From Argopecten irradians (Eukaryota; Mollusca; Bivalvia; Pectinida; Pectinidae), in contig NC_091142.1 in the NCBI RefSeq assembly GCF_041381155.1, positions 35,389,604 to 35,453,603 of the forward strand: 64,000 nucleotides of DNA, given 5' to 3'. How positions within the stretch are numbered: position 1 is the stretch's first letter; each line of letters opens with the position of its first letter. The notes beneath the pieces are model-generated. The model saw nothing but the letters and a program-made list of their open reading frames with translations, was not told the DNA's origin and ran no database searches. Below are positions 28,390 to 64,000 of this stretch, one piece after another. The translations under genes and the position numbers were made by a program.

Positions 28390-31300
28390 CTAAGAACACA
28401 CTCCTGGGTAGACTTGTACGTCATCAATAGCCACACCACCAGCCTCGTTTTGGATGTAACACTCAATATATACCTACAAAATGAAACCAAAAAGAAAACG
28501 ATTATTGGTATACGCTTAATGTATGCAATTAGGTTGTTTAATGTCAATAAAATAGAAACACAATCAACAAAAACACAAGAAAAAAAAAAGGAAAAAAAAC
28601 CCAGCGTACTTTCATCATCTTCAACCTAATAATACAGATATATCCATGTTTTTCAATAATATATTTTGAGTTGTTTTTTTTCTGGGTCTGGCAAACCAAA
28701 GAGCTCTTTTCAGACTACCTACCCTCCACTTATGGGACGTATTGACGTAGTGCGTCCGGTACTGGAACCAGCCACCGTCTATATTACCCCCGGTGTTGGA
28801 CGTGCGTGACGAAAGCGTCACTTCTGTGTCGTTGACGTAATCATACGCCCGAACAGTCAAGGTCGAGGTGTTGTCTCCAACAATGAAGTAATGCAGAGAG
28901 ATACAATACTCTCCTGGTGGGATCTCTCTGGCAGACAATAGCCGGGACGTCTTGTTGTAGTTTCCTGTCCCGTTAGAGTATAAGTAGAAACCTAGGGAGG
29001 AGACATATGCAGTATATATAGCGCGCGTAAAGGTCCACTACAGCTAAAAGGATTTTGATTTTTAAAATGAAAATGTAAATCTGGATTCATATTTTTGTAG
29101 AGTTGCAAAAGTTTTATCATTAATACTATAGTATTTAATACTATAGTATAACCACTTCTAAACATTTAAATAAAAATGGATTAGATGCTAATTTTCATAA
29201 CTCGGGTTGTCTTATGCTTCCCACCGTCGTCATAATTTGCCGCGCCTTAGTTGACTATCACTGCGCCAGACGGCAAAATAGTGAAAGGAATCTTCACTCT
29301 TTATCTATATTACACAAATAATCTTGCATAGAACACCGAAATAAGTTTTCTAATGTAAGTTTTTTTTAAATTTCTTTTTTAAAGAATTCCTATTTTGTAA
29401 AGGTGGTGGACCTTTCCGATACGCGGATGATATGACAAAATGGTAAATAAATGATAGATGCTTAAGAACATCGTGTTTGTGTCTATAAATTCACTAATTT
29501 ATGATCAATAGTTTTTCATTATTTCTCTAGTTTCCATTTCCAAAACAGACTGTATAAATTCACCTATTCTGGATATTAACTATTTTCGTGATTAATTTAT
29601 TGCCCGTGAATTACACAAACTTTGATCGCATACGTTTGTTTACGATATTAATGTTGCCACCAATATACATGTGTACTTAAGACCCCTTGATATGTCTTTA
29701 TACAAACTTCCGAGCTGAAGGTCAGTTATAACCAAAGACTTAATTTCATTTGATACAAACCCCGGGATAATACCTGCCGTTCCCGCTGCAGAGGTCAGCT
29801 TAAGGTTCATTTTGACCAAGTGCTGAGTTTTGTCTGATACAAACACCAGGATTATACCTACTCTTTATCTGGATTGGTCAGCTGAAGGTCCATTATTTCC
29901 AAGGACCGAGTTTTGTATGACACAAACACCAGTGTTATACCTACCGTTCCCGCTGGAGTGGTCAGCTGAAGGTCCATTTGGTCCAAGGTCTGAGTTTTGT
30001 CTGATCCATTTGAAATCGTCTTTATAGTCGTCGGCTAAATTACACATGATGTTTTCAAAGTTGCAGTCCACTGCAAAAGCTTTAAAATAAAATATTAAGT
30101 GAAAACAATATTAATAAGGATTTAAAGTGATAATAAACATCTCTTGTATTGAATTATATTGAATGGCTTTCAATATGGCCAGAATGGATCACCTGAAAGT
30201 TTCGAAATACATGATTATAACGGAGTAATATCCATACCGTCAATGTTTCTTTCAGGGAGAGGGCTTATGTAGGCATAGCCTGCTGCCCAATCCCTATTCA
30301 ATCAAATGATTTGATAACATTATTTTGAAATGAAATAAAAAAAAATGTTTCTTTCAGAAGAATTTTGTAAAACACAATGTGGTCATAATGAAGTATTTCC
30401 ATTGACGCCCAAAGGTTCTATATAACCGTGTTACACTGCGCTAGTGTTCTTTAGCTTGTTTAAATGTAAACTTTGGATAAATGAGGGTCTGGTAAATTTG
30501 CTAGCATAACAGTGGTAAGACGATCGCATTGTCGGGTACATATAGTCCGCTAAACCTGCCTATATTATTAGGCTTTTTTTTGGCCTAATATATAGTCAGC
30601 TAGGTACCGACTAGGGTACATAGTATATATATGTAACTTACCAGGGCTGTTGAAGATATGGGATGTATCTATAAAGACAAGAAACGTAATTTTTTTTTTA
30701 AATTTTTTAAATCATAAAACATTTATACGACCATATGCATGATACATGTATATGTATTGTTTGAAACAAAAAAGTATTATCTGCATAAAAGGGCTGACTA
30801 ATCGATTGTTTGTTATGCAATAATGATATATTACGCATCTAAGCGTAGTTCGTAGATGACGTATGCTATATACTAAGTGATTTTATTAAATATAACAATT
30901 CAATTCCCTGTCCTTTATCAAATAAACAAAGAAACTGTCATCTGATTAAACAAACATTGATGAATCTTCTTATCTTTCACCACATCAAACATTGCATTGC
31001 TTTACTAAAAAGTTTAGATATTTTTTTATTAAAATTCCACTGATATGGAGATTTTGTTAAATATATTAATTATGATTACCATGACCACAGATGTAGAGTG
31101 TCTGTAGTTTAAGGACATCATGGTAACTAAGCATGCGCTTGTTACCAAAGCTTACATCCGATACATTGGCAGTGATTGTAGGTAGTCGAGGGTCTTTTGC
31201 GAAGGCGTACGGACTGTAGTGTGTGATGGAGTCGAAATCATACGGATAGCCTAAGAGGTCTGTGTCACTAGAGGGGATCTTCTCAAAGTGTGACCTGGCA

Positions 31301-34300
31301 ACTGAAAGTAAACGGTTATTACAGTTTAACTATTTATCCTGAATGGTTCTTTCATTACGTTTTGTCTTGGCGTATACGTATTAGTATATTGACTCAATCT
31401 TGGTCGCATTTAAAAGATATCTTTGCAAATACTCCATTAGTTGACATTATTTAAAAAATATAAATATTTGCTCATCTTGGTGCTTGTCCCGTACCCTCTT
31501 CATTTGCTAATGTTTACATGCATGCGTTTTACCCATGATACTCACCATCTTGTACGTTGTCCATGTGCACCTCTATGTACTGGTCCCTGTCCGGTCGCTG
31601 GTGTTCGTGGTACAGCCCTAGTGTAACCAGAAGTAGAGACATGATCTCCCGTTTGTACATACAGTCGTCTGTAAGGTATAGCTTCTGTCGACCACCAACC
31701 ATTCCTACGTTACTGGTTTTGCACATTCTAGTACAAATAGGACGAATAAAAATATGGACAATGATGAGAATCGAGTATTAATTAAACGTGTTTTCATATT
31801 TATAGGTTCGAATATGTGTGTTCCAGTTGATTAAACAAAGACCAAGAACAGTGAACCCCGTTTGCGGTCGTCTTTCCTTTCCCTGTGTTTCACATTTTAC
31901 AGTATTAATACATATAATTCATGAAAGCAGTGTATCGGAGCTGAGGATGTTCTTGCATCAAAGATATTTTAATTCCGTTGAATCGTTTATATGCGAATAT
32001 AATATAATCGAAATATGACATTCGTATGCCTACAACTCACCCGTCTGTGGCCTCCGTTATAAACAAAAAGTCACTCCGGTCCCGGAAAGCTCCTTCTTTT
32101 TTCTCAAAACTGACGCAATAACCTTCGTCCGTTTTGACGTCATTCTGAATCTCCTTCATTGCCTGTTCTATTACGGCGTGTTGGGAATCATCTAATGTAA
32201 ATATCACAATAATAACTAATAGCTGTGCATTTTGCCATAAAATTTGAACATTCTATGCATGACTATGACGTGGTTTCTATACTTTAAAGATGCTCCATCG
32301 CTGACAAATGGTATTTTTTCACTATCAAAAACAGGAGCAGACGATTTAGCATTTTCTTCAGTTACAAAACTTACTTACTTTACACCATTACCACCATTGA
32401 AACTCTTGAGCTTTTAATTTTACTTCACTAGTTAAAAAATTGCAAAAAATAATTAATTGTATCCCGAAAAAACCCGTGACACTATATTCTATATGGAATG
32501 AAGTACTGATTGCGCATGTACCAAAAGCGAAATACATTATTTTATATTATATTAAATAATAAATATCATTTATGCTCTGTCGTCGGTGGAGCATCTTTAA
32601 TATTTGATGGAAGTGCTATGCGGAGTTATCTTTCCCTAACACCCCCAATTACCCTGTTGTTATATACGGTAGAATTGTATACTCACCGATAAGAGTGCTG
32701 ATTTGGTATACCACAGTCTCATGCTCCCATAACTTGTATTTATCATTGATGACATTTCTCACCTACAATATGTAAAAACAGTACTATAACACTCGGAATA
32801 CTTTACTACCAAACTACTGTTTTTTTTTCATTTTTTTCATTTATTTTTTTTTATTTTAGAGAGAATAATTGATTATGGATGCAAAATCCCTCGATTGCGC
32901 AGGCAATGTGTATTAGTGAATATGTCTCAATCAATGAAGACGCAAAATATTGTAATGCGGAAATACTTTCATTTACAGAATATGAATCAGTCTTAAGTAA
33001 CTAGTGAAATGTAATAATATCAGCGTGTTTCATGCAATACTTTCATCTGGGTGACATTAAATTAAAGTTAGTGCAATGAATATCTTACGACAGTTTTTGA
33101 CTGACCCTGTTTGTATAATAGGTGCCATTTAGAGTCTAACCACACTCGGAACCCACAGTGTCTAATTGCCACAACGCCCTGTTTACCAGCCACAGTGTCT
33201 AATCACCACAACGCCCTGTTTACCGCCCACAGTCTCTAATCGCCACAACGATCTGTTTACCACCCACAGTCTCTAATCGCCACAACGCCCTGTTTACCAC
33301 CCACAGTGTCTAATCGCCACAATGCCCTGTTTACCACCCACAGTCTCTAATCGCCACAACGCCCTGTTTACCACCCACAGTCTCTAATCGCCACAACGCC
33401 CTGTTTACCACCCACAGTCTCTAATCGCCACTACACCCTGTTTACCATACACAGTCTCTAATCGCCACAACGCCCTGTTTACCATCCACTGTCTCTAATC
33501 GCCACAACGCCCTGTTTACCACCCACTGTCTCTAATCGCCACTACACCCTGTTTACCACCCACAGTGTCTAATCGCCACTACACCCTGTTTACCATACAC
33601 AGTCTCTAATCGCCACAACGCCCTGTTTACCACCCAAAGACTTAATCGCCACAACGCCCTGTTTACCACCCAAAGTCTCTAATCGCCACAACGCCCTGTT
33701 TACCACCCACAGTCTCTAATTGCCACTACACCCTGTTTACCATACACAGTCTCTAATCGCCACAACGACCTGTTTACCATCCACAGTCTCTAATTGCCAC
33801 TACACCCTGTTTACCATACACAGTCTCTAATCGCCACAACGCCCTGTTTACCACCCACAGTCTCTAATCGCCACTACACCCTGTTTACCATCCACTGTCT
33901 CTAATTGCCACTACACCCTGTTTACCATACACAGTGTCTAATCGCCACAATGCCCTGTTTACCACCCACAGTCTCTAATCGCCACAACGCCCTGTTTACC
34001 ACCCACAGTCTCTAATCGCCACAACACCCTGTTTACCACCCACAGTCTCTAATCGCCACAACACCCTGTTTACCACCCACAGTCTCTAATCGCCACTACA
34101 CCCTGTTTACCACCCACAGTCTCTAATTGCCACTACACCCTGTTTACCACCCCACTGTCTCTAATCGCCACTACACCCTGTTTACCATACACAGTCTCTA
34201 ATCGCCACAACGACCTGTTTACCATCCACTGTCTCTAATTGCCACTACACCCTGTTTACCACCCACAGTGTCTAATCGCCACAACGCCCTGTTTACCACC

Positions 34301-35244
34301 CACAGTCTCTAATCGCCACTACACCCTGTTTACCACCCACAGTCTCTAATTGCCACTACACCCTGTTTACCACCCACAGTCTCTAATCGCCACTACACCC
34401 TGTTTACCACCCACAGTCTCTAATCGCCACTACACCCTGTTTACCACCCACAGTCTTTAATCGTCACTACGCCCTAAGCTGTTTACCATGTTTACGAACT
34501 GTGTCACAAGATAGGGAAATCGGCGTATTATTTAATCAAAAGACTTAACACAGATGGTGCTTTTCAAAGTTATATATGAATCCAAACATGACGGTTTCCA
34601 CTGATGTGGTCTTGACGTAAGAAACAGTAATAAGAAGTAGTGTTGTGGATAAAGTGATTACTTTTAACACGTTTTTTCATTCATTTCGTACAGAGTGTCG
34701 TATGCGAGATCTTGGATTTGGCAAAGGCCAATCACCTTTTGTCACCTTATAATTTACATGCCCTTCTAAGGAAATACGATATGTTCATAACCTAATACAA
34801 ATAAATCCTAACTATCAGGTGAAGTTGTTTTAACCAATTCGAACACAATGTTCTTGTAAGAGGCGGGGTTATACATACGAGGTTACTCGTACGGTATTGT
34901 TTTGGTATACATACGAGGTTACTCTTGTTATCGAATTGTATTTGTTTGTTTTCTTGTGTGGTTAACTTTATGAACGTAGGAATGACATTACATTTTTGTA
35001 TAAGAATGATTTTATTGATAAAAAATATTTTATATATTTCCATAGATCAAATAGCAATTTTACAAGATTATTAAAGGTCATATAACAAAACGTACTTTAC
35101 ACACCTAATAAAACATCGAAACTTAATTAAAATGGCTATAAATAGTGCTGACCAGTACTGTACCTGTGGTTGTATGGCAGATTCCACACCAATGCATATT
35201 GACGCCAGCACATAAAGACCGATTACAGGACAAAACAGAGCCAT
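28390..35244 (-). CDS. Astacin copy A: secreted pseudo-astacin with C-terminal MAM domain, 9 exons
   Basis: Exons in coding order: 35244-35164, 32762-32687, 32191-32041, 31727-31546, 31301-31080, 30668-30642, 30079-29945, 28991-28723, 28473-28390 (stop). They sum to 1227 nt, 408 residues, with all phases joining. Layout: signal peptide about 1-22; astacin domain 28-238 starting VRNVINDKYKLW; linker; MAM domain about 248-408 (VDCNFENIMCNL ... GGVAIDDVQVYPGVC). All four astacin cysteines (YCVSF, MCKTS, DDCMYK, YICG) remain. The zinc site is lost: at the HExxHxxGxxH positions are Ser133, Leu134 and Val137, with only His143 kept. The Met-turn has Thr190, with Tyr192 kept. There is no propeptide, so zymogen control is absent. 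The protein is probably a secreted non-catalytic binding protein; function unknown. The 31080 donor (GTAATC) is weak and could be six nt away. Confidence 0.87.
28723..30079 (-). CDS. Copy A exons 7-8: MAM domain
   Basis: Exon 30079-29945 has VDCNFENIMCNL, FKWIRQNSDLGPNGPSADH and SGNG, the MAM opening. Exon 28991-28723 has FYLYSNG, REIPPGEYCISLHYFIVG and WFQYRTHYVN. The last exon (28473-28390) supplies CYIQNEAGGVAIDDVQVY. MAM domains mediate adhesion or oligomerisation in meprins and receptor phosphatases. Confidence 0.85.
28992..29689 (-). other. Copy A intron 7, remaining part
   Basis: AT-rich intron sequence, with no exon or classified repeat seen apart from the donor duplications beside it. 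Confidence 0.5.
29690..30004 (-). repeat. About four tandem copies (83-bp unit) of the MAM exon end and its 5' splice site
   Basis: The last part of exon 29945-30079 with its donor recurs downstream in the intron at about 29862-29925, 29779-29842 and, more weakly, 29700-29760. Each copy keeps GACCTTCAGCTGA-like exon sequence and a donor-like GTAGGTATAA or GCAGGTATTA. The spacing is close to 83 bp. Confidence 0.72.
30253..30341 (-). repeat. SINE-like dispersed repeat, copy 1
   Basis: Shares GGATTGGGCAGCAGGCTATG, CCTACATAAGCCCTC and an ATTTCATTTCAAAAT tail (minus-strand reading) with copies at 50771-50861 and 51789-51874. Only about 90 bp, so this may be the 3' part of a longer family. Confidence 0.6.
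31546..31727 (-). CDS. Copy A exon 4: altered astacin active-site exon
   Basis: 182-nt exon reading MCKTSNVGMVGGRQKLYL, DDCMYKREIMSLLLVTLG and LYHEHQRPDRDQYIEV, then VQD with donor GTGAGT. Counting from the conserved Cys125, the positions normally holding His, Glu and His are Ser, Leu and Val. The flanking GLYHEHQRPDRD is strongly astacin-like. This exon end is single copy here, unlike in copies B and C. Confidence 0.9.
32284..32600. mobile_element. Nonautonomous DNA transposon (MITE) with TTAA flanks
   Basis: Terminal inverted repeats start AGATGCTCCATCG on the left and AGATGCTCCACCG on the right (reverse complement), flanked on both sides by TTAA. The target could be TTAA (piggyBac-like) or TA; the palindromic TTAA cannot decide. 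The length is about 317 bp with no coding. The homologous intron of copy B lacks it, so it entered copy A after the duplication. Confidence 0.8.
33127..34490. repeat. 37-bp minisatellite, about 36 copies
   Basis: The unit is close to GTCTCTAATCGCCACAACGC followed by CCTGTTTACCACCCACA, with common variants (CACTACACC, CATACA, CATCCA). It lies in intron 1 of copy A. Copy B has only a single related stretch near 50020-50060, so the array grew after duplication. Confidence 0.92.
34491..35163 (-). other. Copy A intron 1, proximal part, homologous to 50060-50610
   Basis: The intron from about 34480 to 35130 aligns by eye with copy B intron 1 (for example GAAATCGGCGT, TAACACGTTTTT, ATCAAATA, ACTTTACACAC). 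A short local duplication of TATACATACGAGGTTACTC lies at about 34868-34925; copy B has its own duplication nearby (50340-50406). Confidence 0.6.
35164..35244 (-). CDS. Copy A exon 1: signal peptide
   Basis: MALFCPVIGLYVLASI and CIGVESAIQPQ in 27 codons, phase 0, donor GTACAG. The core VIGLYVLASICIG is hydrophobic and the likely cleavage is after ESA. It splices in phase to VRNVINDK at 32762, leaving no room for an astacin propeptide. Confidence 0.75.
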
Positions 35245-37588: not shown

Positions 37589-40500
37589 CTACGCTCCACA
37601 GTGAATATCCCGACGGATAATTATGTTGTCCAGAGCCAGGACATCTCCTCCCCAGAGGATATGACCCACCAACTCTATCTGGAAATCCAAATATAAACCA
37701 TATGTTAGTTAGGTATTGAATGTCAATGACGGGTATGGGAAAATAATATTATTTATTTAATTTCTACTTTCCTTAATAGTGGATTCATTGTTACACAAGC
37801 AATATAATTATCTTGACCTAAAATTAATCTTAAATTCATCTGAAATTGAGATCAATTTCACACGAAAAAACTGCAGGTCTATTTCAGGTCCATTTAACCT
37901 GAAATTAACTTTACAAAACATGTGAATTTAGATCATTTTCATATGAATTTCAGATCAATTTTATGTCAAGGTTTGCCTGAAACGACCTTTTTTGCTCTTT
38001 TCATGATGTAAATGACCAGAAAAAAATCCCATGCTATTGACCTGAAATTGACCTGAATTTACCTTACCTTTTATATTATGCCTGTGTATACGAAATCAAA
38101 ATATCACAGACTACTTACATCCCATTCTTTTACTGACGCATGCTTAATATTGAGTGTTGTCCAGCATCCACTTTGATTCACGTAGTTGAGTTTGTTAGAG
38201 TCAGTTCCCTTGGTCAGTTGTATGTACGACTTTATATCCGGGGAGGAAGACGAGATACAGATGTCAACAGATATACAGAAATTCCCGGGGGGTAGGGGAA
38301 GATTACTCGTCCAGTTTGCGCCATTCAGAACAGTCAGGGTGTACATATCTGTGGATTTTTTTATAATAAACGCAAATAAATTCGCATGATTGTAGAATGC
38401 ATGCAACATATAGAAAATCTGTCTTGAGTTATTCTTAGACCTTAGATTTTACTCGATTTATAAAACAAGTTTTAAAGTTGAGAGCCTTTGACGAGAAAAA
38501 ATCATAAACGAAATTATTATTTAACATGTAATATAATCTGAATCATAAATAAGGTATGTTGCATACAAATAACTTGCCTGTATCATCATTCTTGCTACAC
38601 CCCGTAGTCATGTAGTCTGGGAGTGACTCGGAGGTGACACGCCATTGTGGGTAATAATAGTCGGTAGATAATTGTTGGAATAAATTCACAAATTTTCCTC
38701 CAAACATAGTGTAACCTCAACGTGAAAAATATAATAGATACAATGTGTATTTCTGTGTAATGTCAGAAATCGGCCAACATATTATTCCATTCCCGATGTG
38801 TTATTGCTGTTTCATTTTGACATTATTCTCAATACAAAATTCAAATATGGTTTTATATTTCTGCATCCCAAACCATGTAATCAATGATTTTATGTAACCA
38901 TTGCTATAATGATATTCCATTTTCCTTGCAACTTTATAACTTTATTTACAGATTGTATTGACACATGCATGTTAATATTGCCGCAGTATAAATTGGATCT
39001 TATGTTACGTATTGTATATTAAATACTCTACCTAAATGACATTGATATAACATCTGTACTTTCAGTACGTCGTAGAAGGAGGGCACACTGCCGCCACCAA
39101 AGCTGACATTATATTTTATCGCGGTAATGGTGGGTTGACTTTTAGACTTGGCGAAATCGTATGGGCCGAAATGTGTGATGGAGTCAAAATCGTAAGGAAG
39201 TCCAAGTAGGTCAGTATCGTCTGTAGGGATCTTATTAAACAAAGGTCTCGCGGCTGGAAATAGAAAGTTTTACTATACATTGATTAATTTATTCATTAAT
39301 TTAATTTATGTAAAATCTGTGTCAACTAAAAGAAATCAAACAAAACTTTTCATCAATAGCTCATAGAAATATAATGACAAGAGAAGGTGGTACGAATAGA
39401 ATGCTTACAAGTATTAATCACAGCCTTACATTAAATAATTATATGGATTATCTAATCAGTATCTTGCAATGCTCACCATCCCGTACGTTGCCCGTGTGTA
39501 CCTGTATGTACTGGTGTACATATCATCCTGTACCTTGTCCATGTGTACCTGTATGTACTTGTGCACTTACCATCCTGTACGTTGTCAGTGTGTACCTGTA
39601 TGTACTAGTGTACTATACATCTTGTACGTTGTCCGTGTGTACCTGTATGTACTGTGTACTTACCATCCTGTACGTTGTCCGTGTGTACCTGTACGGTGTA
39701 ATTACATCCTGTACGTTGCCGTGTGTACCTGTATGTACTGGTGTACTTACCATCCTGTACGTTGTCCGTGTGTACCTGTATGTACTGGTGTACTTACCAT
39801 CCTGACATTGTCCGTGTGTACCTGTATGTACTGGTGTACTTACCATCCTGTACGTTGTCCGTGTGTACCTGTATGTACTGGTGTACTTACCATCCTGTAC
39901 GTTGTCCGTGTGTACCTGTATGTACTGGTGTACTTACCATCCTGTACGTTTGTCCGTGTGTACCTGTATGTACTGGTGTACTTACCATCCTGTACGTTGT
40001 CCGTGTGTACCTGTATGTACTGGTGTACTTACCATCCTGTACGTTGTCCGTGTGTACCTGTATGTACTAGTGTACTTACCATCCTGTAAGTTGTCTGTGT
40101 GTACCTGTATGTACTGGTGTACTTACCATCCTGTACGTTGTCTGTGTGTACCTGTATGTACTGGTGTACTTACCATCCTGTACGTTGTCTGTGTGTACCT
40201 GTATGTACTGGTGTACTTACCATCCTGTACATTGTCCGTGTGTACCTGTATGTACTGGTGTACTTACCATCCTGTACGTTGTCCGTGTGTACCTGTATGT
40301 ACTGGTGTACTTACCATCCTATACGTTGTCCGTGTGTACCTGTATGTACTGGTGTACTTACCATCCTGTACGTTGTCTGTGTGTACCTGTATGTACTGGT
40401 GTACTTACCATCCTGTACGTTGTCCATGTGTACCTGTATGTACTAGTGTACTTACCATCCTGAAAGTTGTCCGTGTGTACCTGTATGTACTGGTGTACTT

Positions 40501-43500
40501 ACCATCATGTACGTTGTCAGTGTGTACCTGTATGTACTGGTGTACTTACCATCCTGTACGTTGTCCGTGTGTACCTGTATGTACTGGTGTACTTACCATC
40601 CTGTATGTTGTCAGTGTGTACCTGTATGTACTGGTGTACTTACCATCCTGTACGTTGTCCGTGTGTACCTGTATGTACTGGTGTACTTACCATCCTGTAC
40701 GTTGTCCGTGTGTACCTGTATGTACTGGTGTACTTACCATCCTGTATGTTGCAGTGTGTACCTGTATGTACTGGTGTACTTACCATCCTGTACGTTGTCC
40801 GTGTGTACCTGTATGTACTGGTGTACTTACCATCCTGTACGTTGTCCGTGTGTACCTGTATGTACTGGTGTACTTACCATCCTGTACGTTGTCCGTGTGT
40901 ACCTGTATGTACTGGTGTACTTACCATCCTGTACGTTGTCCGTGTGTACCTGTATGTACTGGTGTACTTACCATCCTGTACGTTGTCCGTGTGTACCTGT
41001 ATGTACTGGTGTACTTACCATCCTGTACGTTGTCCGTGTGTACCTGTATGTACTGGTGTTTCTTACCATCCTGTACGTTGTCCGTGTGTACCTGTATGTA
41101 CTGGTGTATTTACCATCCTGTACGTTGTCCGTGTGTACCTGTATGTACTGGTGTACTTACCATCCTGTACGTTGTCCGTGTGTACCTGTATGTACTGGTG
41201 TACTTACCATCCTGTACGTTGTCCGTGTGTACCTGTATGTACTGGTGTACTTACCATCCTGTACGTTGTCCGTGTGTACCTGTATGTACTGGTGTACTTA
41301 CCATCCTATACATTGTCCGTGTGTACCTGTATGTACTGGTGTACTTACCATCCTGTACGTTGTCAGTGCGACCTGTATGTACTGGTGTACTTACCATCCT
41401 GTACGTTGTCCGTGTGTACCTGTATGTACTGGTGTACTTACCATCCTGTTCGTTGTCCGTGTGTACCTGTATGTACTGGTGTACTTACCATCCTATACAT
41501 TGTCCGTGTGTACCTGTATGTACTGGTGTACTTACCATCCTGTACGTTGTCCGTGTGTACCTGTATGTACTGGTGTACTTACCATCCTATACATTGTCCG
41601 TGTGTACCTGTATGTACCTGTACTTACCATCCTGTACGTTGTCCATGTGTACCTGTATGTACTGGTGTACTTACCATCCTGTACGTTGTCCGTGTGTACC
41701 TGTATGTACTGGTGTACTTACCATCCTGTACGTTGTCTGTGTGTACCTGTATGTACTGGTGTACTTACCATCCTGTACGTTGTCCGTGTGTACCTGTATG
41801 TACTGGTGTACTTACCATCCTGTACGTTGTACGTGTGTACCTGTATGTACTGGTGTACTTACCATCCTGTTGTTGTCGTGTGTACCTGTATGTACTGGTG
41901 TACTTACCATCCTGTACGTTGTCCGTGTGTACCTGTATGTACTGGTGTACTTACCATCCTGTACGTTGTCCGTGTGTACCTGTATGTACTGGTGTACTTA
42001 CCATCCTGTACGTTGTCCGTGTGTACCTGTATGTACTGGTGTACTTACCATCCTGTACGTTGTCCGTGTGTACCTGTATGTACTGGTGTACTTACCATCC
42101 TGTACGTTGTCCGTGTGTACCTGTATGTACTGGTGTACTTACCATCCTGTACGTTGTCCGTGTGTACCTGTATGTACTGGTGTACTTACCATCCTGTACG
42201 TTGTCCGTGTGTACCTGTATGTACTGGTGTACTTACCATCCTGTACGTTGTCCGTGTGTACCTGTATGTACTGGTGTACTTACCATCCTGTCCGTTGTCA
42301 GTGTGTACCTGTATGTACTGGTGTACTTACCATCCTATACATTGTCCGTGTGTACCTGTATGTACTGGTGTATTTACCATCCTGTACGTTGTCCGTGTGT
42401 ACCTGTATGTACTGGTGTACTTACCATCCTGTACGTTGTCCGTGTGTACCTGTATGTACTGGTGTACTTACCATCCTGTACGTTGTCCGTGTGAACCTGT
42501 ATGTACTGGTGTACTTACCATCCTGTACGTTGTCCGTGTGTACCTGATTGTACTGGTGCTTCATCTGTACTGTGTGTTACCTGTACCACTTCCATCCTGT
42601 ACGTTGTCCGTGTGTACCTGTATGTACTGGTGTGTACTTACCATCCTATACATTGTCCGTGTGTACCTGTATGTACTGGTGTACTTACCATCCTGTACGT
42701 TGTCCGTGTGTACCTGTATGTACTGGTGTACTTACCATCCTGTACGTTGTCCGTGTGTACCTGTATGTACTGGTGTACTTACCATCCTGTACGTTGTCCG
42801 TGTGTACCTGTATGTACTGGTGTACTTACCATCCTATACGTTGTCCGTGTGTACCTGTATGTACTGGTGTACTTACCATCCTATACATTGTCCGTGTGTA
42901 CCTGTATGTACTGGTGTACTTACCATCCTGTATGTTGTCCGTGTGTACCTGTATGTACTGGTGTACTTACCATCCTGTACGTTGTCCGTGTGTACCTGTA
43001 TGTACTGGTGTACTTACCATCCTGTACGTTGTCCGTACCTGTGTACCTGTACGTTGTACGTGTGTACCTGTACTTCCTATACATTGTCCGTGTGTACCTG
43101 TATGTACTGGTGTACTTACCATCCTATACATTGTCCGTGTGTACCTGTACTTACCATCCTATACATTGTCCGTGTGTACCTGTATGTACTGGTGTACTTA
43201 CCATCCTGTACGTTGTCCGTGTGTACCTGTATGTAATGGTGTACTTACCATCCTATACATTGTCCGTGTGTACCTGATTGTACTAGTGTGCTTACCATGC
43301 TGTACGTTGTCCGTATGTACCTGTATGTACTGGTGTACTTACCATCCTGTATGTTGTCAGTGTGTACCTGTATGTACTGGTGTACTTACCATCCTGTACG
43401 TTGTCCGTGTGTACCTGTATGTACTGGTGTACTTACCATCCTGTCCGTTGTCAGTGTGTACCTGTATGTACTGGTGTACTTACCATCCTATACATTGTCC

Positions 43501-46500
43501 GTGTGTACCTGTATGTACTGGTGTATTTACCATCATGTACGTTGTCCGTGTGTACCTGTATGTACTGGTGTACTTACCATCCTGTACGTTGTCCGTGTGT
43601 ACCTGTATGTATTAGTGTACTTACCATCCTGTACGTTGTCCGTGTGAACCTGTATGTACTGGTGTACTTACCATCCTGTACGTTGTCCGTGTGTACCTGA
43701 TTGTACTAGTGTGCTTACCATCCTGTACGTTGTCCGTGTGTACCTGTATGTACTGGTGTACTTACCATCCTGTACGTTGTCAGTGTGTACCTGTATGTAC
43801 TGGTGTACTTACCATCCTATACATTGTCCGTGTGTACCTGTATGTACTGGTGTACTTACCATCCTGTACGTTGTCAGTGCGACCTGTATGTACTGGTGTA
43901 CTTACCATCCTGTACGTTGTCCGCGTGTACCTGAATGTACTGGTGTACTTACCATCCTCAACGTTGTCCGTGTGTACCTGAATGTACTGGGGTACTTACT
44001 ATCCTGTACGTTGTCAGTGCGACCTGTATGTACTAGTGTACTTACCATCCTGTACGTTGTCCGTGTGTACCTGAATGTACTGGTGAACTTACCATCCTGA
44101 ACGTTGTCCGTGTGTACCTGAATGTACTGGTGTACTTACCATCCTGTACGTTGTCCGTGTGTACCTGTATGTACTGGTGTACTTACCATCCTGTACGTTG
44201 TCCGTGTGTACCTGAATGTACTGGGGTACTTACTATCCTGTACGTTGTCAGTGCGACCTGTATGTACTAGTGTACTTACCATCCTGTACGTTGTCCGTGT
44301 GTACCTGAATGTACTGGTGAACTTACCATCCTGAACGTTGTCCGTGTGTACCTGAATGTACTGGGGTACTTACCATCTTGTACGTTGTCCATATGTACCT
44401 GTATGTACTGGTGTACTTACCATCCTGTATGTTGTCCGTGTGTACCTGAATGTACTGGTGTACTTACCATCCTGTACGTTGTCCGTGTGTACCTGAATGT
44501 ACTAGGGTACTAACAATCTTGTACGTTGTCCATATTTACCGTTATGTACTGGTGTACTTACCATTCTGTACGTTGTCCGTGTGTACCTGTATGTACTAGT
44601 GTATTTACCATCCTGTGCGTTTTCCGCGTGTACCTCTATGTACTAGTGTACTTACCATTCTGTACGTTGTCCATGTGTACCTCTATGTACTAGTGTACTT
44701 ACCATCCTGTACGTTGTCAGTGTGTACCTGTATGTACTGGTGCACTTACCATCCTGTACGTTGTCCGTGTGTACCTGTATGTACTGGTGCACTTACCATC
44801 CTGTACGTTGTCCGTGTGTACCTGTATGTACTGGTGTACTTACCATCCTGTACGTTGTCCGTGTGTACCTGTATGTACTGGTTTACTTACCATCCTGTAC
44901 GTTGTCAGTGTGTACCTGTATGTACTGGTGTACTTACCATCCTGAACGTTGTCCGTGTGTACCTGTATGTACTGGTGTACTTACCATCCTGTACGTTGTC
45001 CGTGTGTACCTGTATGTACTGGTGTACTTACCATCCTGTACGTTGTCCGTGTGTACCTCTATGTACTAGTGTACTTACCATCCTATACATTGTCCGTGTG
45101 TACCTGTATGTACTGGTGTACTTACCATCCTGTACGTTGTCAGTGTGTACCTGTATGTACTGGTGTACTTACCATCCTGTACGTTGTCCGTGTGTACCTG
45201 AATGTACTGGTGTACTTACCATCATGTACGTTGTCCGTGTGTACCTGAATGTACTGGAGTACTTACCATCGTGTACGTTGTCCATATGTACCTGTATGTA
45301 CTGGTGTACTTACCATCCTGTATGTTGTCCGTGTGTACCTGAATGTACTGGTGTACTTACCATCCTGTACGTTGTCCGTGTGTACCTGAATGTACTAGGG
45401 TACTAAAAATCTTGTACGTTGTCCATATGTACCGTTATGTACTGGTGTACTTACCATTCTGTACGTTGTCCGTGTGTACCTGTATGTACTAGTGTATTTA
45501 CCATCCTGTGCGTTTTCCGTGTGTACCTCTATGGACTAGTGTACTTACCATTCTGTACGTTGTCCATGTTTACCTCTATGTACTAGTGTACTTACCATCC
45601 TGTACGTTGTCAGTGTGTACCTGTATGTACTGGTGTACTTACCATCCTGTACGTTGTCAGTGTGTACCTGTATGTACTGGTGTACTTACTATTCCGTAGG
45701 TTGTCTGTGTGTACCTGTATGTACTGGTGTACTTACCATCCTGTACGTTGTCCGTGCGTACCTGTATGTACTGGTGTACTTACCATCCTGTACGTTGTCC
45801 ATGTGTACCTGTATGTACTGGTGTACTTACCATCCTGTACGTTGTCTGTGTGTACCTGTATGTACTGGTGTACTTACCATCCTGTACGTTGTCTGTGTGT
45901 ACCTGTATGTACTGGTGTACTTACCATCCTGTACGTTGTCAGTGTGTACCTGTATGTACTGGTGTACTTACCATCCTGTACGTTGTCAGTGTGTACCTGT
46001 ATGTACTAGTGTACTTACCATCCTGTACGTTGTCTGTGTGTACCTGTATGTACTGGTGTACTTACCATCCTGTACGTTGTCCGTGTGTACCTGTATGTAC
46101 TAGTGTACTTACCATACTGTACGTTGTCCGTGTGTACCTGTATGTACTGGTGTACTTACCATCCTGTACGTTGTCCGTGTGTACCTGAATGTACTGGGGT
46201 ACTTACCGTCTTGTACGTTGTCCGTGCGTACCTGTATGTACTGGTGTACTTACCATCCTGTACGTTGTCAGTGTGTACCTGTATGTACTGGTGTACTTAC
46301 CATCCTGTACGTTGTCAGTGTGTACCTGTATGTACTGGTGTACTTACCATCCTGTACGTTGTCCATATGTACCTGTATGTACTGGTGTACTTACCATCCT
46401 GTATGTTGTCAGTGTGTACCTGTATGTACTGGTGTACTTACCATCCTGTGCGTTTTCCGTGTGTACCTGTATGTACTGGTGTACTTACCATCCTGTACGT

Positions 46501-49500
46501 TGTCAGTGTGTACCTGAATGTACTGGTGTACTTACCATCCTGTATGTTGTCCATATGTACCTGTATGTACTGGTGTACTTACCATCCTGTACGTTGTCCG
46601 TGTGTACATGTATGTACTGGTGTACTTACCATCCTGTACGTTGTCCGTGTGTACATGTATGTACTGGTGTACTTACCATCCCGAACATTGTTCGTGTGTA
46701 CCTCTGTGTAATGGTGTACTTAGCATTCTGTACGATCTCCGTGTGTACCTGTATGTACTGGTGTAGTTACCATCCTTTACGTTGTCCGTGTGTACCTGCA
46801 TGTACTGGTGTATTTATCATCCTGTACGTTGTCCGTGTGTACCTGTATGTACTGGTGTAATTACCATCTTGTATGTTGTTTGTGTGTACATGAATGTACT
46901 GGTCCCTGTCCGGTCGCTGGTGTTCGTGGTACAGCCCCAGTGTTACCAGCAGTAGAGACATGATCTCCCGTTTGTTCATACACTCGTCTGTAAGGTATAG
47001 CTTCTGTCGACCACCCACCATTCCTACTCTACTTGTTTTGCAGATTCTAGTAAAAAATGGACATAATTATAATATGACTAATGATGGTAACTTTATCAAT
47101 TACAATGTATCCATTCTTTTCATTAGCAAATACTTTTACATTTTACGTTCGAATATGTTTGTTCCATTTGTTTAAATTAAGACCACGAAAAGTGATCCCC
47201 GTTTGCTCTCGTCTTTCCTTTTTACATGTTTTCGCTCTTTACAGTATTAATACATTGAATTAATTAAATCAGTGTATCGGAGCTCGGCATGTCCTTGATG
47301 TTTGTTGTCACGCAATTGTAAAACCTCACACGGGATTACATATAAAATGGAACAATCTGCACCATGGAGATGTTACGCCGATCATTTGTTGTCAATGGAA
47401 ACCAAAACAAATAAAATCTTGTATCAACGGTATTTTGTCATTTTATTTCAGGTGAATCGTTTATATGAAAATATGATATAACCAATCGAAATATGACATT
47501 CGCATGGGCATGATAGCAACTCACCCGTCTGTGGCCTCCGTTATAAACAAATAGTCACTCCGGTCACGGAAGTCTCCTTCTTTTTTCTCAAAACAGACAC
47601 AATTCTCTTCACCCGTTTTGACGTCATTCTGAATCTCCTTCATTGCCTGTTCTATTACGGCGTGTTGGGAATCATCTGATGTAAGTATCACATTAATAAC
47701 TAATAGCTGTGTATTTCGCCATAAAATTTCTTTTTAAACTCTTTCTATGCATGACTTTGATGTGGTTTCTTTTATCATGTTTTCCAATATGCTGATGCGC
47801 TATTGTGTGGAATAATAGGCTTGTTAGTGTTTATGTTAAGTTAAGTAAATGACAATCCATAGAGGAAAACACTAGCGGGATCATTTGAATCCGTTAAAAA
47901 TGACCATTACACATGTACTAAAGTGTCTAAAAGATCACATTGTTAATTTTAAGTCCCAGTAGCTTGGGATCCATAAAGCTCAAACTTGCACTTAACCGAC
48001 TTTGTTACACATATAAAATTCTATAGTGATCATATATATATACATTATTATTTGGCTCCCCAAATGAAAAAAAAGAAAATAGTTCAAAATTCATCAATTC
48101 ACCTGTAATCATACTGTATGGTTAATATTTGATAGGAGAGCTACGTGTGTACTGGCATGTGTTATCTGGCTTTTTCCTGTAAACATATGTATATTTCCCC
48201 TAACAACCCTTCTGTTGTCATATACGGTAGAATTGTATACTCACCGATAAGAGTGCTAATTTGGTATACCACAGTCTCATGCTCCCATAACTTGTATTTA
48301 TCATTGATGACATTTCTCACCTACAGTATGTAAAAACAGTACTATAACACTCGGAATACTTTACTACCAAACTACTGTAAAATATTTTATTTTCGCGAGA
48401 TAAATTTTTTCATGTAATTTTGCGAAAATTTAAGTGTTAGGCTAATAATTGTACATGGATGCACAAATGTCAGTAAAATCCCACGATTGAGAAGACAACG
48501 TGTATTCGTGAATAATTCATTTTTGTTTGTTACGAGCATTTTCATTGGCTTAAAAATTTACTTTATCAGCCCATAAAGGAAAAAATGGCGTCGCCGTTTG
48601 TAACGTCGCTTCTGATTGGCTGAGATGACGGCGTAATATTTTCATAGACAAAAGAGTCCCAAAATGAATTTTAAATGTTGAAGAGATTATCTTTAGTAAA
48701 TTGAATTATAAGGATAAATTTGAATAGATTTTTTATGTTATGGAGATATAACACAAAAATCTGAGTGTACTCTCATCATAAACCGCTTCGCGGTTTATTT
48801 AGAGTACACTCAGATTTTTGTGTTATATCTCCATAACATAAAAAATCTATTCAAGTTAATCCTTAAATATTTGTCCAGTAATGAAGGCGCAAAAATTGTT
48901 ACTCGAAAATACTTTGGTTTACAGAATACGAATCGGTATTTAAATAGCTAGTTCATTTTATTAATTACTGCGTGTTTGATACAACATATATCAATCAAAC
49001 GTGGCAGGCGTGGCAGGGTTTTCTTAGCTTAAAGTTAGAGTAATATAAGACTCTTTCATATGTAGATGGATAGATAGATAGATATCCCCTATTCCTTATT
49101 TCTCTGAGATTACAAAAGCAAAGGAGAAAAGTAAAAAAAATGCATTTTAGAGTCAAATAATGTGAAATAATTTGAAATTGATATTTACAAATTCGAGCAA
49201 CGTTGCTTCTTTATGTCCGATTTACTGATTGTCCATATTCTAGTTGTTCCTTAAATTTGGCACTTTCGTGTATAAATGTCCATCAGAATTTGCATACATT
49301 TTTTTGTATCAATTTTGAGACATATTTCATCATTTCCGTCCAGTTTTTGTCTGTTTAATCAATATATGATGATCGTCTACCACGGACGAATTTTGTCTCG
49401 AAAGTTTTTATTTTTGCTCGCGAAGCCTTGCAAAATAAAAACTTCTAAGACTCGTTTCATAAAATCTCATATGAAATGAAAACTCATGTAAGATCCTATA

Positions 49501-52500
49501 TCTATCAGAAAATGTATATCAGTTACCATTTTACCTTATAATTTTCGAACAGTTAGGGTGTTATTGTAACTCTACTCTACCCCTGATGGTCTTCAGATGT
49601 CTTGAGGCTTGTCGAAGGTTTTACAACATTTTGTGATCCCGATGATAGAATATCCCTATCCTACATATCCAAATGTGAAAGAATATATTCTTCTCATACC
49701 TCGACATTTTATTGCAATTTTACTACTATCATTTTTCGCCATTTTGAAATAAATGCAAATCCCGTTTTGTAAATCAGACCTATTTTCTGTTAAAAATTTA
49801 TAAAATTGTATCAGGAAAATAGTAACTTTGTTGAGGATGTGATGTCATGAAGCTTTATTGCATGAGTAGCTATGAATTACAGCTTCGAGCGATATAAGTG
49901 TATTGTCCTGGACCAGCCAGTATTACACATGTAGGTATGAGAGAAATAAACATATCTTTCGGCAGTTCTTGCCTTGACTCTGTTTGTATGTTAGATATCA
50001 TTTAGAGTTAACGCTACTCTCGGAAATCACATTGTCGAAACGCCATTATGCTCCTCTTATATCATGTGCACAAGACAAGAGAAATCGGCGTTTTATGCCA
50101 ATCATAATACTTCACACAGATGCCGTTTTGAAACTTTTGAAACTTATCTAGGAAACCTCAACATGACGGTCTCTACTGGCGTAGTCTTGTCGAAAAAAAA
50201 TCTATAATTAAAAGTAGCGTGGTAGATAATGTGATTGATCTTTAACACGTTTTTCATTGCATATTCTAGAGAATGTCTTCTGCGACAGCTACCTTTCAGC
50301 CGTCATCTTGCATTTGGAAAAGACTGAAAGTGAAGTCCTCAATAGGCGGGATAATATATACAAACTTGATTCAATAGGCGGGGATAATATATACAAACTT
50401 GATTCTGATTATGTAATGACTTTTTAGTTCTGTATGTTTTTGTATGTGAATCTTATGATAGTAGGAATGGTATTATGATAATGATTACATTGAGCTAAAG
50501 TCATGTATGTGTTTCCATAGATCAAATAACTATGTGACTAAAAGATTAAATGTCACATATCAAAACGCACTTTACACACGTAGTTCAACACCGAACCTTG
50601 ATTAAAATGTGTCCTAATATTCCTAGTGCCACCCTCTTATATGAATACTACCTGCATTAGAGGCTGACAGTGTCTAGTGTCACCCCTGAGGATATCACAA
50701 TTAACCTCGGCTTCGCCTCGGGTGACAGTGATATTCCGAGGGGTAACACTAGACACTGCCACCCTCTACTGCATTTCATTTCATTTCAAAATATTTTATT
50801 AAATCGTTAGATTTAATAGGGATTGGGCAGCAGGCTATGCCTATATAAGCCCTCTCCCTGTGGATACATACATGTACATCTCAAAATCATATATATAATA
50901 TATGTAATTTTACAGACAATATTGAAATTAAATATATATTTAGGATACACTTGTAAGTAATACTATGATAACACTCCAATAATGAGCAGGTATAAAAAGC
51001 ATGTTAAGTATATATATATACATGTAAATATGCATACCAATGTTTTTGTTTATAGTTAAAATTTACTGCATGTAGTATTTATTTTATTATACCAAAATGC
51101 TAGAAACAAAACTAGTTTTCAAGTGTTTGCAAGCTATTGAATCATTTTAACTTATTTTAGCAATAGTCGAACACTCATGAACCGTCGACAGTAAAATAGC
51201 ATATCAGTTTCTACTCAGTAGCGCTTATTATCATTGCATTGTAAAAAAAGAATACTCTCAATAATTCGTGATAAGTTTCAATAATCTGAAATGCTATGCA
51301 GGCTGATGCCTGTTTGTCTAACGCAGTGATCCATTAGTTTGGTACTGGCGCCATTTGCTTTCGCTTTATTCGTGATATCTGGTCATGATGCTGGTACACT
51401 GTATATGCAAAGGTATCGACATGTTATTGCAGCCCGGTTACAATGAATGTCCGGAGTAATAGTGACATTGAGGGGTTGAGTTATAATCCAAAATCCTATT
51501 AAACTAAAATTGGGACCTTTTGATTAAGCGAATATTGACCAATTAATACCTTTATTAATGAAAGTATTATACAACAGGAAGCTATGCATGTTATCCATCG
51601 CTATAGGTATTTCTTCTATTATATATGTAAATAACTGTTCATAAGCGTTTTTAAAAATATGTACGATTTGTGTTAATTCTAAAAATGATTAAATGTTATT
51701 TTATAGATCCAGTCCAGTGCAAATATGCATTTTAACGATATGCTTTTAAAGATATGTTTCTATATACAATACCTGCATGTAATCATGTGGAAAGGGCATA
51801 TATAGACTTTGCCTGCTGCCCGATCCAAAATCGAATCTTTTGATTTAATAAAATATTTTGAAATGAAAATGAAATATGCAAAGGTAAACATATGGCACAC
51901 TTTGGGTAGCTAGCAGTTTGATAAAATTCTTCAGTTCAAGGTCTTCATTTAGCCGGATATTAACGGCACTATTTACATTGACACTTCACAGTATTTGTTG
52001 TTGCTACTGAACCCAACATATAATATTTTCTATTAAGTTTGGACCTGGCGTACTTATACTTTCATCAGAGTTCAAGAGGTCATGAAAACCTGGATTTACA
52101 TCAATATGATGATTCACCGAATAAAGTTAAACAAAAATGAATTGATCAATATAAAAATACATTCTAATTAAGATATTTGAAATGCACTGAAATAAAGTTG
52201 GGAGTAGCTAGCAAGTGAATGAACAATTCTTTGTTTAATATCTTCATTTACACGGTTAGAATAGCTTGCTTATCAGGTGCACAGCTTAATATGTTTTAAG
52301 AGAGAAATAGTACGGACAAGTAATACAATATTATACAGACTGCCATTGTCCCGTAAGCAGGTAGACATTGTACAATCAATAAATGGAGTGTCAAATGACC
52401 TCCTTTTCGACATAGATAACGACGCGCCTCACACAACCAAGTTATGTAATGATATGGTTTTTAAATAGCGATACAGGTGCGTGTGAAATAATGTCTTGTC

Positions 52501-54169: not shown

Positions 54170-54580
54170 GCATATAACCTAAAACCCGTAACTCTAAAAC
54201 CTATAAACTTTAACCCTATAACATTTCACCCTATAAACTATAACCTATTACTCTATAACATATAGCCCTTTAACATGTAACCCTATAACCTATAACGCTA
54301 TAGCGTATAACATATAACCCTATCACCTATAACCTATTACTCTATAACATATAGCCATTTAGCATGTAACCTTTGATAATGTATAACCCTATAACATATA
54401 ACCCTATAACCTATAGTGCTATAGCATTTAACCTATATTTAAACCCTATCACCTATAACATATAACGTATAATCCTAAAACATATAACCCTATAACCTAT
54501 AACATACATCATATAGTCCTGTAACATGTAACCCTATAACCTGTAACCCTATAACCTATAACCCTATAACCTATAACAAA
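54170..54580. repeat. Degenerate AACCCTATAACCTATA minisatellite
   Basis: Roughly 400 bp of short units (about 12-16 bp) of ACCCTATA and ACCTATA, directly next to the donor of copy C exon 54586. Telomere-like only in its CCCTA content; the period is irregular. Confidence 0.75.
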
Positions 54581-60400: not shown

Positions 60401-60760
60401 TATAATAGAGTTTGAAAAATACATAATAACGCCACCTCCAAACATATTTCTATCTTTGCGAAAAGGCTCGTCACTAAAACCATATATATGAATATCTTCG
60501 TTTGGTATTGAACAATCTAAATGACTTTCTGTAATGCAGAGGATATCAACATCGTTAGATATTGATTCATCATAATTTATTTTATTGCGTAGACTTCTAA
60601 CGTTTAATTGCATTAAGTTTAGAGAGTGAAAAGTAGATGTATTTATGTTATCTGCACCAGGGTTTGGATGGATGTCTCCGGACATAAGTAAACGGAGCAG
60701 AATAGGGACAGTGATATTAGTGTTTTATGGTCGCTTGAAGGATCGACAGTATACAAACAA
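57500..60760 (-). mobile_element. LINE (non-LTR retrotransposon), CR1/L2/Jockey-like, 5'-truncated or lacking a clear ORF1
   Basis: ORF2 parts in coding order. Endonuclease at 60685-59822: SGDIHPNPGA, MQLNVRSLRNKI, ITESHLD, GGGVIMYF, LLGDFNVDF, SDHKAV. Linker at 59816-59409: PWFNNNIRKQIRIRNRLK. RT at 59298-58123: NKATGSDGISHRMLK, VIPIFKGGDKH, NYRPISLLS, FCDFSKAFDRVWHKGLLYKL, GVPQGSVLVPL, FADD at about 58636-58647. C-terminal Cys/His motif at 58036-57545: CECGFTCEDSYHFFFTCPKY. The frame changes several times, including just after GVPQGS so that FADD is in another frame, and a stop-rich gap lies around 59300-59400. The copy is therefore dead. The endonuclease carries a 27-nt in-frame tandem duplication (ANDEIIWA twice). 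It lies in a copy C intron in the gene's orientation. Confidence 0.88.
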
Positions 60761-63035: not shown

Positions 63036-63248
63036 CTTTCTTACATCCGGAGAGTTTCTGTACTTCCAGGACGTCGTAGAAGCTGAGAAGAGACTCGCCA
63101 CCAAAGCTGACCCCTGATACATTGGTCGTGATTGTAGGGAGGGATTGGTTTTAATGGCGTACTGGTACTCCCCGTAGTGTGTGACGGAGTGGAAGTCGTA
63201 AGGCAAGGCTTGTACTAACGTTTGAGTGCTCAAATGAATCGCGAGTAC
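63036..63248 (-). CDS. Copy C Met-turn exon (frame-disrupted)
   Basis: Acceptor ATTACAG and donor GTACTG. The ends read TRDSFEHSNVSTSLA and PTITTNVSGVSFGGESLL, then FYDVLEVQKLSGCKK in one frame; the centre LPYDFHSVTHYGEYQYAI is in another. The total stays a multiple of three (213 nt). SVTHY replaces SxMHY, so the Met-turn Met is missing here too. Confidence 0.7.
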
Positions 63249-63595
63249 CTGTAATTAAAGAATTTTAGTAAATATTTCATATTTCCAAATACAGCATTTA
63301 TCGTTTTATTTTGTCAAATTACAGTTTACTCATTACTTACATGTAAAACTAAATCAAAAATGTATAGTCATACGTTGTGATCATACAACAGTCAGGTGGA
63401 TATGTATTTCATTAATTGCCTTCTCTCAAGTTTATCTACAGTTATATCTGCTGGTCTTGATTGCTCATTTAAATTAGTGCAAGCTTCTTCAAAATTAAAC
63501 CAAGTTGAATTAGTGTTATGTTTGTCATGTTCATAATGTGATACTATATCCCTATCAATATCATTTTTTTTCAAATTTATTCAAAATTATTGTCA

Positions 63596-64000
63596 ATATG
63601 TGCCTGTATGTACTGGTGAATTAACTATCCTGATTGTTATCCTTGTGTACCTGTATGTAATTGTGTACTTACCATCCTGTATGTTGTCCGTGTGTACCTG
63701 TTTGTACTAGTGTATTTACCATCCTGTACGTTGTCCGTGTGTACCTGAATGTACTGGCGTACTTACCATCCTGTACGTTGTCAGTGTGTACCTGTATGTA
63801 CTGGTGTACTTACCATCCTGTACGTTGTCAGTGTGTACCTGTATGTACTGGTGTACTTACCATCCTGTACGTTGTCCGTGTGTACCTGAATGTACTGGCG
63901 TACTTACCATCCTGTACGTTGTCCGTGTGTACCTGTATGTACTGGTGTACTTACCATCCTGTTCGTTGTCAGTGTGTATCTGTATGTACTGGTGTACTTA
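63596..64000 (-). repeat. Second block of the 47-bp exon-end/splice-donor array (copy C)
   Basis: About 8-9 units with the same unit as 39468-46907, running off the window end. It sits upstream of the copy C Met-turn exon, that is, in the same intron position as in copy B. The outermost units are the most diverged. Confidence 0.9.

Follow-up and report, generated by a model that had tools for sequence, protein, structure and literature searches.

A 159-unit minisatellite built from an exon–intron junction in intron 2 of an astacin paralog of Argopecten irradians

We analysed a 64,000-nt stretch of the Argopecten irradians genome (NC_091142.1, positions 35,389,604 to 35,453,603; hereafter the window), which is eukaryotic DNA of 35.8% GC and in which three related gene copies of the astacin family, A, B and C, are visible on the minus strand. 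Our subject is a tandem array in copy B. Wrap-around alignment resolved 159 tandem units of 47 nt at 46903–39472, between exon 2 and exon 3 of this minus-strand gene, a count that takes copy B's own exon 2 end as unit 1 and places 158 further units in intron 2. Tandem Repeats Finder (TRF) returned a period of 47, 158.9 copies and 92% matches at 39475–46903, and the array extends over 7.4 kb. An initial annotation, made from the letters alone, had described about 158 tandem units of exon end plus donor directly downstream of the real exon end of copy B, which TRF and the alignment both confirm; the exons it had placed at 47046–46865 and 39253–39032 proved exact, with open spliced frames. Feature coordinates are collected in Table 1.

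Each unit comprises approximately 37–39 nt of exon end followed by 8–10 nt of intron, the intron part usually being GTAAGTAC. The split of the unit (37 + 10 or 39 + 8) is ambiguous because the letters AC stand on both sides of the junction. Read in the exon frame, the unit consensus encodes QYIQVHTDNVQDG, followed by GTAAGTAC. The array adjoins the authentic exon end and its tandem unit spans the exon–intron boundary, including the splice signal, as in the amphioxus ‘mirages’ considered below. The last 37 nt of exon 2 agree with the unit consensus at 33 of 37 positions in copy A, which is free of the array, and at 31 of 37 in copy B. In a shuffle control, the copy A exon end scored at most 22/37 against 2000 shuffled units, and a BLAST comparison of the copy A exon end with the array units gave 91% identity over 46 nt (E = 2e-10). 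The unit derives from the end of exon 2, and the match is not chance. At the far edge, the donor of unit 159 (GTGAG) resembles the GTGAGT of copy A. The resulting order, exon body, then units, then intron body, with a copy A-like donor in the last unit, is the remnant expected of a junction amplified in place.

The units show the turnover typical of a tandem repeat. Thirty-nine of the 159 are identical to the consensus and 82 distinct unit sequences occur, with units 101–150 the most homogeneous (column statistics are for 148 units, the 11 of 159 with several gaps or insertions being left out); the mean number of columns differing from the consensus is 2.4 in units 11–100 and 0.8 in units 101–150. 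Among units 1–64, the mean distance dips to 3.31 at a lag of 19, compared with 3.93–4.92 at other lags up to 30, which shows a 19-unit block duplication; in the unit list, units 29–35 recur as units 48–54. Unit 1 differs from the consensus at 7 columns and unit 159 at 8, with units 2, 3 and 4 differing at 2, 3 and 4, respectively, although a sharp edge effect is not established because six other units also differ at 7 or more columns. On the plus strand, antisense open reading frames (ORFs) of 913 and 929 amino acids run through the array at 39806–43236, as expected of a unit that lacks a stop on its reverse strand.

We propose that the last 37–39 nt of exon 2 and the first 8–10 nt of intron 2 were duplicated within the cluster of tandem astacin paralogs, and that the array may then have grown to 159 units in copy B by unequal exchange and block duplication. 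The two end units would have kept their places throughout, unit 1 on the exon body and unit 159 on the ancestral intron. Microhomology at the first duplication was considered and dropped, since neighbouring units are alike by construction and copy B is therefore unreadable on this point. Long tandem arrays are often misassembled, and the length of the array could in principle be an artefact of assembly; its 82 distinct unit sequences and internal block structure, together with the presence of the same repeat family at copy C, make this extremely improbable.

GTAAGT is present in 139 of the 159 aligned units, and counting downstream from the real exon end gives 138 such donors. Duplex energies with the 5′ end of U1 were −5.1 kcal/mol for the real donor GTAATT, −10.5 kcal/mol for a typical unit, −11.2 kcal/mol for the donor of copy A and −5.0 kcal/mol for the GTAACT of unit 3. 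The earlier picture of about 158 consensus donors, all better than the genuine one, is thus overstated in number, but most units are indeed better, 148 of the 158 downstream units pairing better with U1 than the genuine GTAATT. Closest to the exon, units 2 (ATAAAT) and 4 (CTAAGT) have no GT and unit 3 (GTAACT) has a donor roughly equal to the weak real one, which puts the first intact GTAAGT 188 nt into the intron. This first intact rival would yield a 370-nt exon; with the last intact donor before the acceptor, 317 nt of intron would remain.

Splicing from each of the 158 downstream units was followed in silico. Seven have no GT. Another 150 run into a stop within the array (unit 3, 46769–46767), and splicing from unit 3's own donor shifts the frame and reaches a stop shortly past the join. 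All 151 downstream units that carry GT at the junction thus give a premature stop, and only the first donor keeps the frame open. The initial annotation had predicted frameshifts and stops from the later donors. The truncated frames are borne out, but their cause is not only the 47-nt period: as the stop stands in unit 3, it arises from the array itself, whatever the length class, and not only because 47 is not a multiple of three. The same stop led us to reject the array as coding sequence. A known RNA (spliced leader or small nuclear RNA) was also rejected as the identity of the array, an Rfam scan of the window at gathering thresholds giving no match. By a simple rule, no acceptor-like site was found in the array, with 0 of 466 YAGs having 9 of 12 pyrimidines before them.

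Table 1. Coordinates of the exons, repeat units and arrays in the window
Feature	Position	Strand	Basis or remark
Copy B exon 1, astacin domain, 151 nt	47525..47675	-	
Copy B exon 2, 182 nt, with altered zinc site SLLLVTLGLYHEH	46865..47046	-	
Copy B exon 3, 222 nt, open frame	39032..39253	-	
Whole array of copy B, 159 x 47 nt	39472..46903	-	TRF and unit alignment; unit 1 = end of exon 2 and intron nt 1–10
Unit 1, genuine exon 2 end QYIHVHTNNIQDG; real donor GTAATT at 46864, U1 duplex −5.1 kcal/mol	46855..46901	-	Unit alignment
Units 2–4, nearest the exon, none with GTAAGT: ATAAAT and CTAAGT (no GT), GTAACT (weak)	46714..46854	-	
Stop codon in unit 3, reached in the exon frame on reading into the array	46767..46769	-	
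Region holding the 138 downstream GTAAGT donors that are intact (first 46676, last 39570)	39570..46676	-	
Unit 159, intron-side edge, donor GTGAG, then unique intron	39472..39513	-	Unit alignment, sequence
Copy A exon 1	32041..32191	-	140/151 identical to copy B
Copy A exon 2, array-free, with donor GTGAGT at 31545	31546..31727	-	164/182 identical to copy B
Copy A exon 3	31086..31301	-	129/216 identical to copy B
Copy C array, 8 complete units flanked by partial ones, truncated at the window end	63590..64000	-	On the exon 2 side of copy C exon 3
Copy C exon 3, broken frame	63036..63248	-	Matches the family in two frames; stop at amino acid 31 in the junction frame
Three 84-nt copies covering the end of the MAM exon downstream in copy A	29751..30004	-	TRF

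The spliced open frames comprise 182 codons in copy A and 184 in copy B, and both match Pfam Astacin (PF01400) over nearly the whole domain (E = 7.2e-37 and 2.6e-36, respectively). Only exon 3 and part of the array of copy C fall inside the window, its exon 2 lying outside. The HExxH motif forms the zinc site of the astacin family. When copy A was aligned with the structure 3lqb, HELNH corresponded to SLLLV, while the third histidine and the glutamate following it are kept; copy B has the same residues, and neither A nor B carries the catalytic zinc site HExxHxxGxxHE. With HExxH replaced by SLLLV, the A and B proteins are probably catalytically dead, and the two copies, whose frames remain open, probably represent a pseudoprotease line. 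The ratio of nonsynonymous to synonymous divergence (dN/dS) between A and B is 0.31 in exon 1 and 0.36 in exon 2, with dS saturated in exon 3, and nonsynonymous changes per site are the fewer in exons 1–2 (Fisher p = 0.0066), from which at least one lineage has been constrained for part of the time. Over the last 13 codons of exon 2, dN is 0.188 compared with 0.047 in the rest, and dS is 0.608 compared with 0.164; because dS rises equally with dN, there is no sign of relaxed constraint.

The same 47-nt repeat lies beside copy C, from 63590 and running off the window, so that the junction or unit count is 1 in copy A, 159 in copy B and at least 8 full units in copy C. Seven of copy C's 8 complete units are 0–2 changes away from some copy B unit and the edge unit is 10 away; measured against the consensus, the edge unit differs at 11 columns and the other seven at 1–3. 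Identity between A and B is 90–93% in exons 1–2 and 60% in exon 3, where the three pairs score 129/216 (A/B), 132/205 (A/C) and 126/211 (B/C). Exons 1–2 thus look recently shared, while the three exon 3s look old and about equally distant from one another. Intron 1 of A and B aligns globally at 196/313 with 165 gap columns and reaches 79–85% in BLAST blocks that include exons; on the acceptor side, the A and B introns gave no BLAST match outside the exon region.

The copy B array lies across this step in A/B divergence, which fits gene conversion or ectopic exchange ending in intron 2, with no implication that the array was the cause. A rival reading makes the array the exchange point at which the paralogs' 5′ parts (exons 1–2) and 3′ parts (exon 3 onwards) are recombined into mosaic genes. 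The contrast of 140/151 and 164/182 in exons 1–2 with 129/216 in exon 3 between A and B would suit this, as would the finding that B and C share the repeat yet match at only 126/211 in exon 3. However, any point of the intron could hold the step just as well, A and B are less similar in intron 1 than in their exons, and copy A is without an array. The comparison also consists of three copies, with exon 2 of C outside the window, and we regard this role for the array as very unlikely. A 167-bp stretch that is 98% identical between A and B (32654–32820 and 48212–48378), inside a block of 80% identity, is a further sign of patchy exchange. Copy A also has an array of its own, with approximately 36 copies of a 37-bp unit at 33151–34475, and the matching place in copy B (approximately 50045–50065) is without it; by eye, no exon origin was recognised for the 37-bp unit.

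The initial annotation had suggested that the array acts as a splicing sink that controls output, its donors titrating U1 or diverting splicing and its length serving as a dial on protein level. That a single intron holds 138 strong donors while its array shows no acceptor-like site, under the simple rule above, would be in keeping with such a sink, as would the raw donor 9-mer window, which is the least variable of the 47. Much of the unit's variation outside the donor comes from two CpG pairs, and once the CpG columns are removed, the donor 9-mer ranks 5th and GTAAGT alone 15th; singletons number 1.0 per column in the GTAAGT columns compared with 0.5 in the exon columns. We accordingly dropped selection for the donors within the array, as their low variability fades without the CpG columns and singletons are no rarer in GTAAGT. 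Folding of five units as RNA was at chance level against shuffles (z = −0.04), with a predicted pairing of the donors of 0.52–0.53 compared with a mean of 0.48, so RNA structure that masks the donors was likewise dropped. As the three units nearest the exon also carry no strong donor and no positive evidence for the sink emerged, we consider a regulatory role very unlikely, and the array would appear to lack a function of its own.

In amphioxus, ‘mirages’ are minisatellite-like tandem repeats of variable length that span exon–intron boundaries in Adh3 and globin genes (PMC3087553), to which PGBD5 and troponin C (TnC) have been added (PMC3902484); both papers are cited here from the excerpts available. 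They describe mirages of 2–7 units of 60–160 bp, with Adh3 units of 10–72 bp (PMC3087553, PMC3902484). In the globin mirage BflGb6, the interior units are homogenised and the edges excluded, and the Adh3 data together with reverse transcription PCR on globins suggest that regular splicing is undisturbed (PMC3087553). We consider it reasonably probable that the copy B array is a very large mirage, that is, a minisatellite from tandem duplication of an exon–intron junction, with mainly the first donor in use.

The array would then most likely be removed as intron through the donor of unit 1. The initial annotation had argued that the first donor must be defined by other means, and exon definition offers a published candidate, although in copy B the rivals are stronger than the real donor: according to the available excerpts of PMC9225289, minigenes with 365-nt flanking introns and two identical CAG/guaagu donors spliced exclusively at the upstream one, and weakening both donors led to exon skipping in larger constructs. 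The introns flanking copy B exon 2 are 478 and 7611 nt long, and use of the first donor may be helped both by exon definition in this setting and by the loss of strong donors from the nearest three units. In units 2–4, 4 of 18 donor sites are changed compared with 5 of 123 other sites (Fisher p = 0.016, in a small test of three units chosen post hoc), and the divergence of the non-donor sites is 0.041 compared with 0.052–0.055 in units 11–100. Since divergence at these other sites does not exceed that of the interior, plain edge decay explains the donor changes poorly, and one possible reading, from these three units and a post hoc test, is that the nearest rival donors were lost through selection for correct splicing. 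Some leakage to later donors would give stop-containing RNA.

Several points weigh against the mirage interpretation with first-donor use, besides the size of the test on units 2–4. As the mirages in the excerpts have 2–7 units, their harmlessness may not extend to 158. In the excerpts of PMC9225289, 86% of events are also dominated by the stronger donor, and the downstream donor is the one favoured in most events when no strength filter is applied. With −5.1 kcal/mol, compared with −10.5 for a unit and −11.2 for copy A, copy B's own donor is weak and may support correct splicing only poorly. Given this weaker first donor, leakage, skipping or loss of function must be taken seriously as a rival. 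The constraint seen in exons 1–2 could belong to copy A or predate the array. Finally, the sharply diverged edges of a globin mirage are not clear in copy B.

The array may instead have silenced copy B, with strong late donors winning, an early stop in nearly all transcripts, and decay like that of copy C, whose exon 3 is broken and which shares the repeat. The 148 of 158 units that pair better with U1 than the genuine donor, the dominance of the stronger donor in 86% of events (PMC9225289, excerpts) and the stop in all 151 downstream units with GT are each consistent with this outcome. Set against it, the three exons of copy B are still open over 184 codons, and the last 13 codons of exon 2, where A and B diverge more than in the rest, give no sign of relaxed constraint; described mirages are reported to splice normally (PMC3087553, excerpts), and at equal donor strength exon definition favours the upstream site (PMC9225289, excerpts). 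On this evidence, we judge a knock-out of copy B unlikely, though by no means negligible.

A second exon-end repeat is present in the cluster. The unit of the 84-nt repeat downstream in copy A consists of the end of a MAM exon (SADHSSGNG) and its donor GTAGGT; the first copy has GTAGGT at 29944, and the others have GTAGGT in a weaker context and GC. The MAM match of this ORF (E = 2.9e-05, 24.4 bits) is below the Pfam cut-off of 26.4. Finding two exon-end repeats in one cluster would suit a genome rich in mirages, such as amphioxus has been suggested to have. Elsewhere in the window, long ORFs at 19565–25331 resemble what we take to be a tyrosine-recombinase (DIRS-like) retroelement, and repeats in this region are 99.6% identical between 23410–23978 and 24764–25331 and 100% identical between 18896–19133 and 23973–24210. 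Between copies B and C, fragmented reverse transcriptase-like ORFs occur on the minus strand at 57545–60724, presumably LINE-like (long interspersed nuclear element), and a degenerate (TATAACC)n repeat of approximately 400 bp is found at 54173–54577.

The copy B locus presents a natural competition between one weak upstream donor and 138 strong, near-identical ones in a single intron, which goes far beyond the two-donor minigenes behind the case for exon definition and bears on the limits of the rule that the upstream donor wins, as well as on whether large mirages stay harmless or kill genes. The paralog pattern also raises the question of whether minisatellites at junctions are a mark of exchange between gene duplicates or its cause. 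Taken further, exon-junction minisatellites might be movable recombination hinges, where an array spreads between paralogs, swaps 5′ exon blocks against old 3′ exons and, at high copy number, sets or ends gene output through its stack of donors; we offer this as speculation, and rate it as quite unlikely.

Amplified junction elements are known from other systems. The antifreeze glycoprotein gene that arose from trypsinogen amplified a short intron–exon junction element on the acceptor side, which became coding and gave a functional product; the copy B array shares the amplification of a junction element, but its unit is donor-side, intronic and contains stops. Spliced-leader RNA arrays are tandem repeats of a short exon with a 5′ donor, organised as separate small RNA genes that bear promoters, whereas the 47-nt unit of copy B lies inside a protein gene, is too short, and has no Rfam match in the window. 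Human internal tandem repeats in duplicated genes average four copies of a 30-bp unit (PMC2812944, excerpts) and are alike in being minisatellite expansions in recent paralogs, some of them at exon–intron boundaries; they lengthen exons or make new introns, while copy B has an array of donors instead. The titles and abstract openings of the open-licence literature searched name no array of this size. The initial annotation knew of no described satellite of this make-up, which does not hold, as the amphioxus mirages of Adh3, BflGb6, BflGb9, TnC and PGBD5 share it, being exon–intron boundary minisatellites, and also share concerted evolution within the cluster (PMC3087553, PMC3902484, excerpts). 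The kind of repeat is therefore already known from amphioxus; as far as the literature seen goes, its scale and its setting, in paralogs whose A/B identity falls across the array, are new, with 159 units, 7.4 kb and 138 intact downstream donors in copy B and the repeat present in two paralogs.

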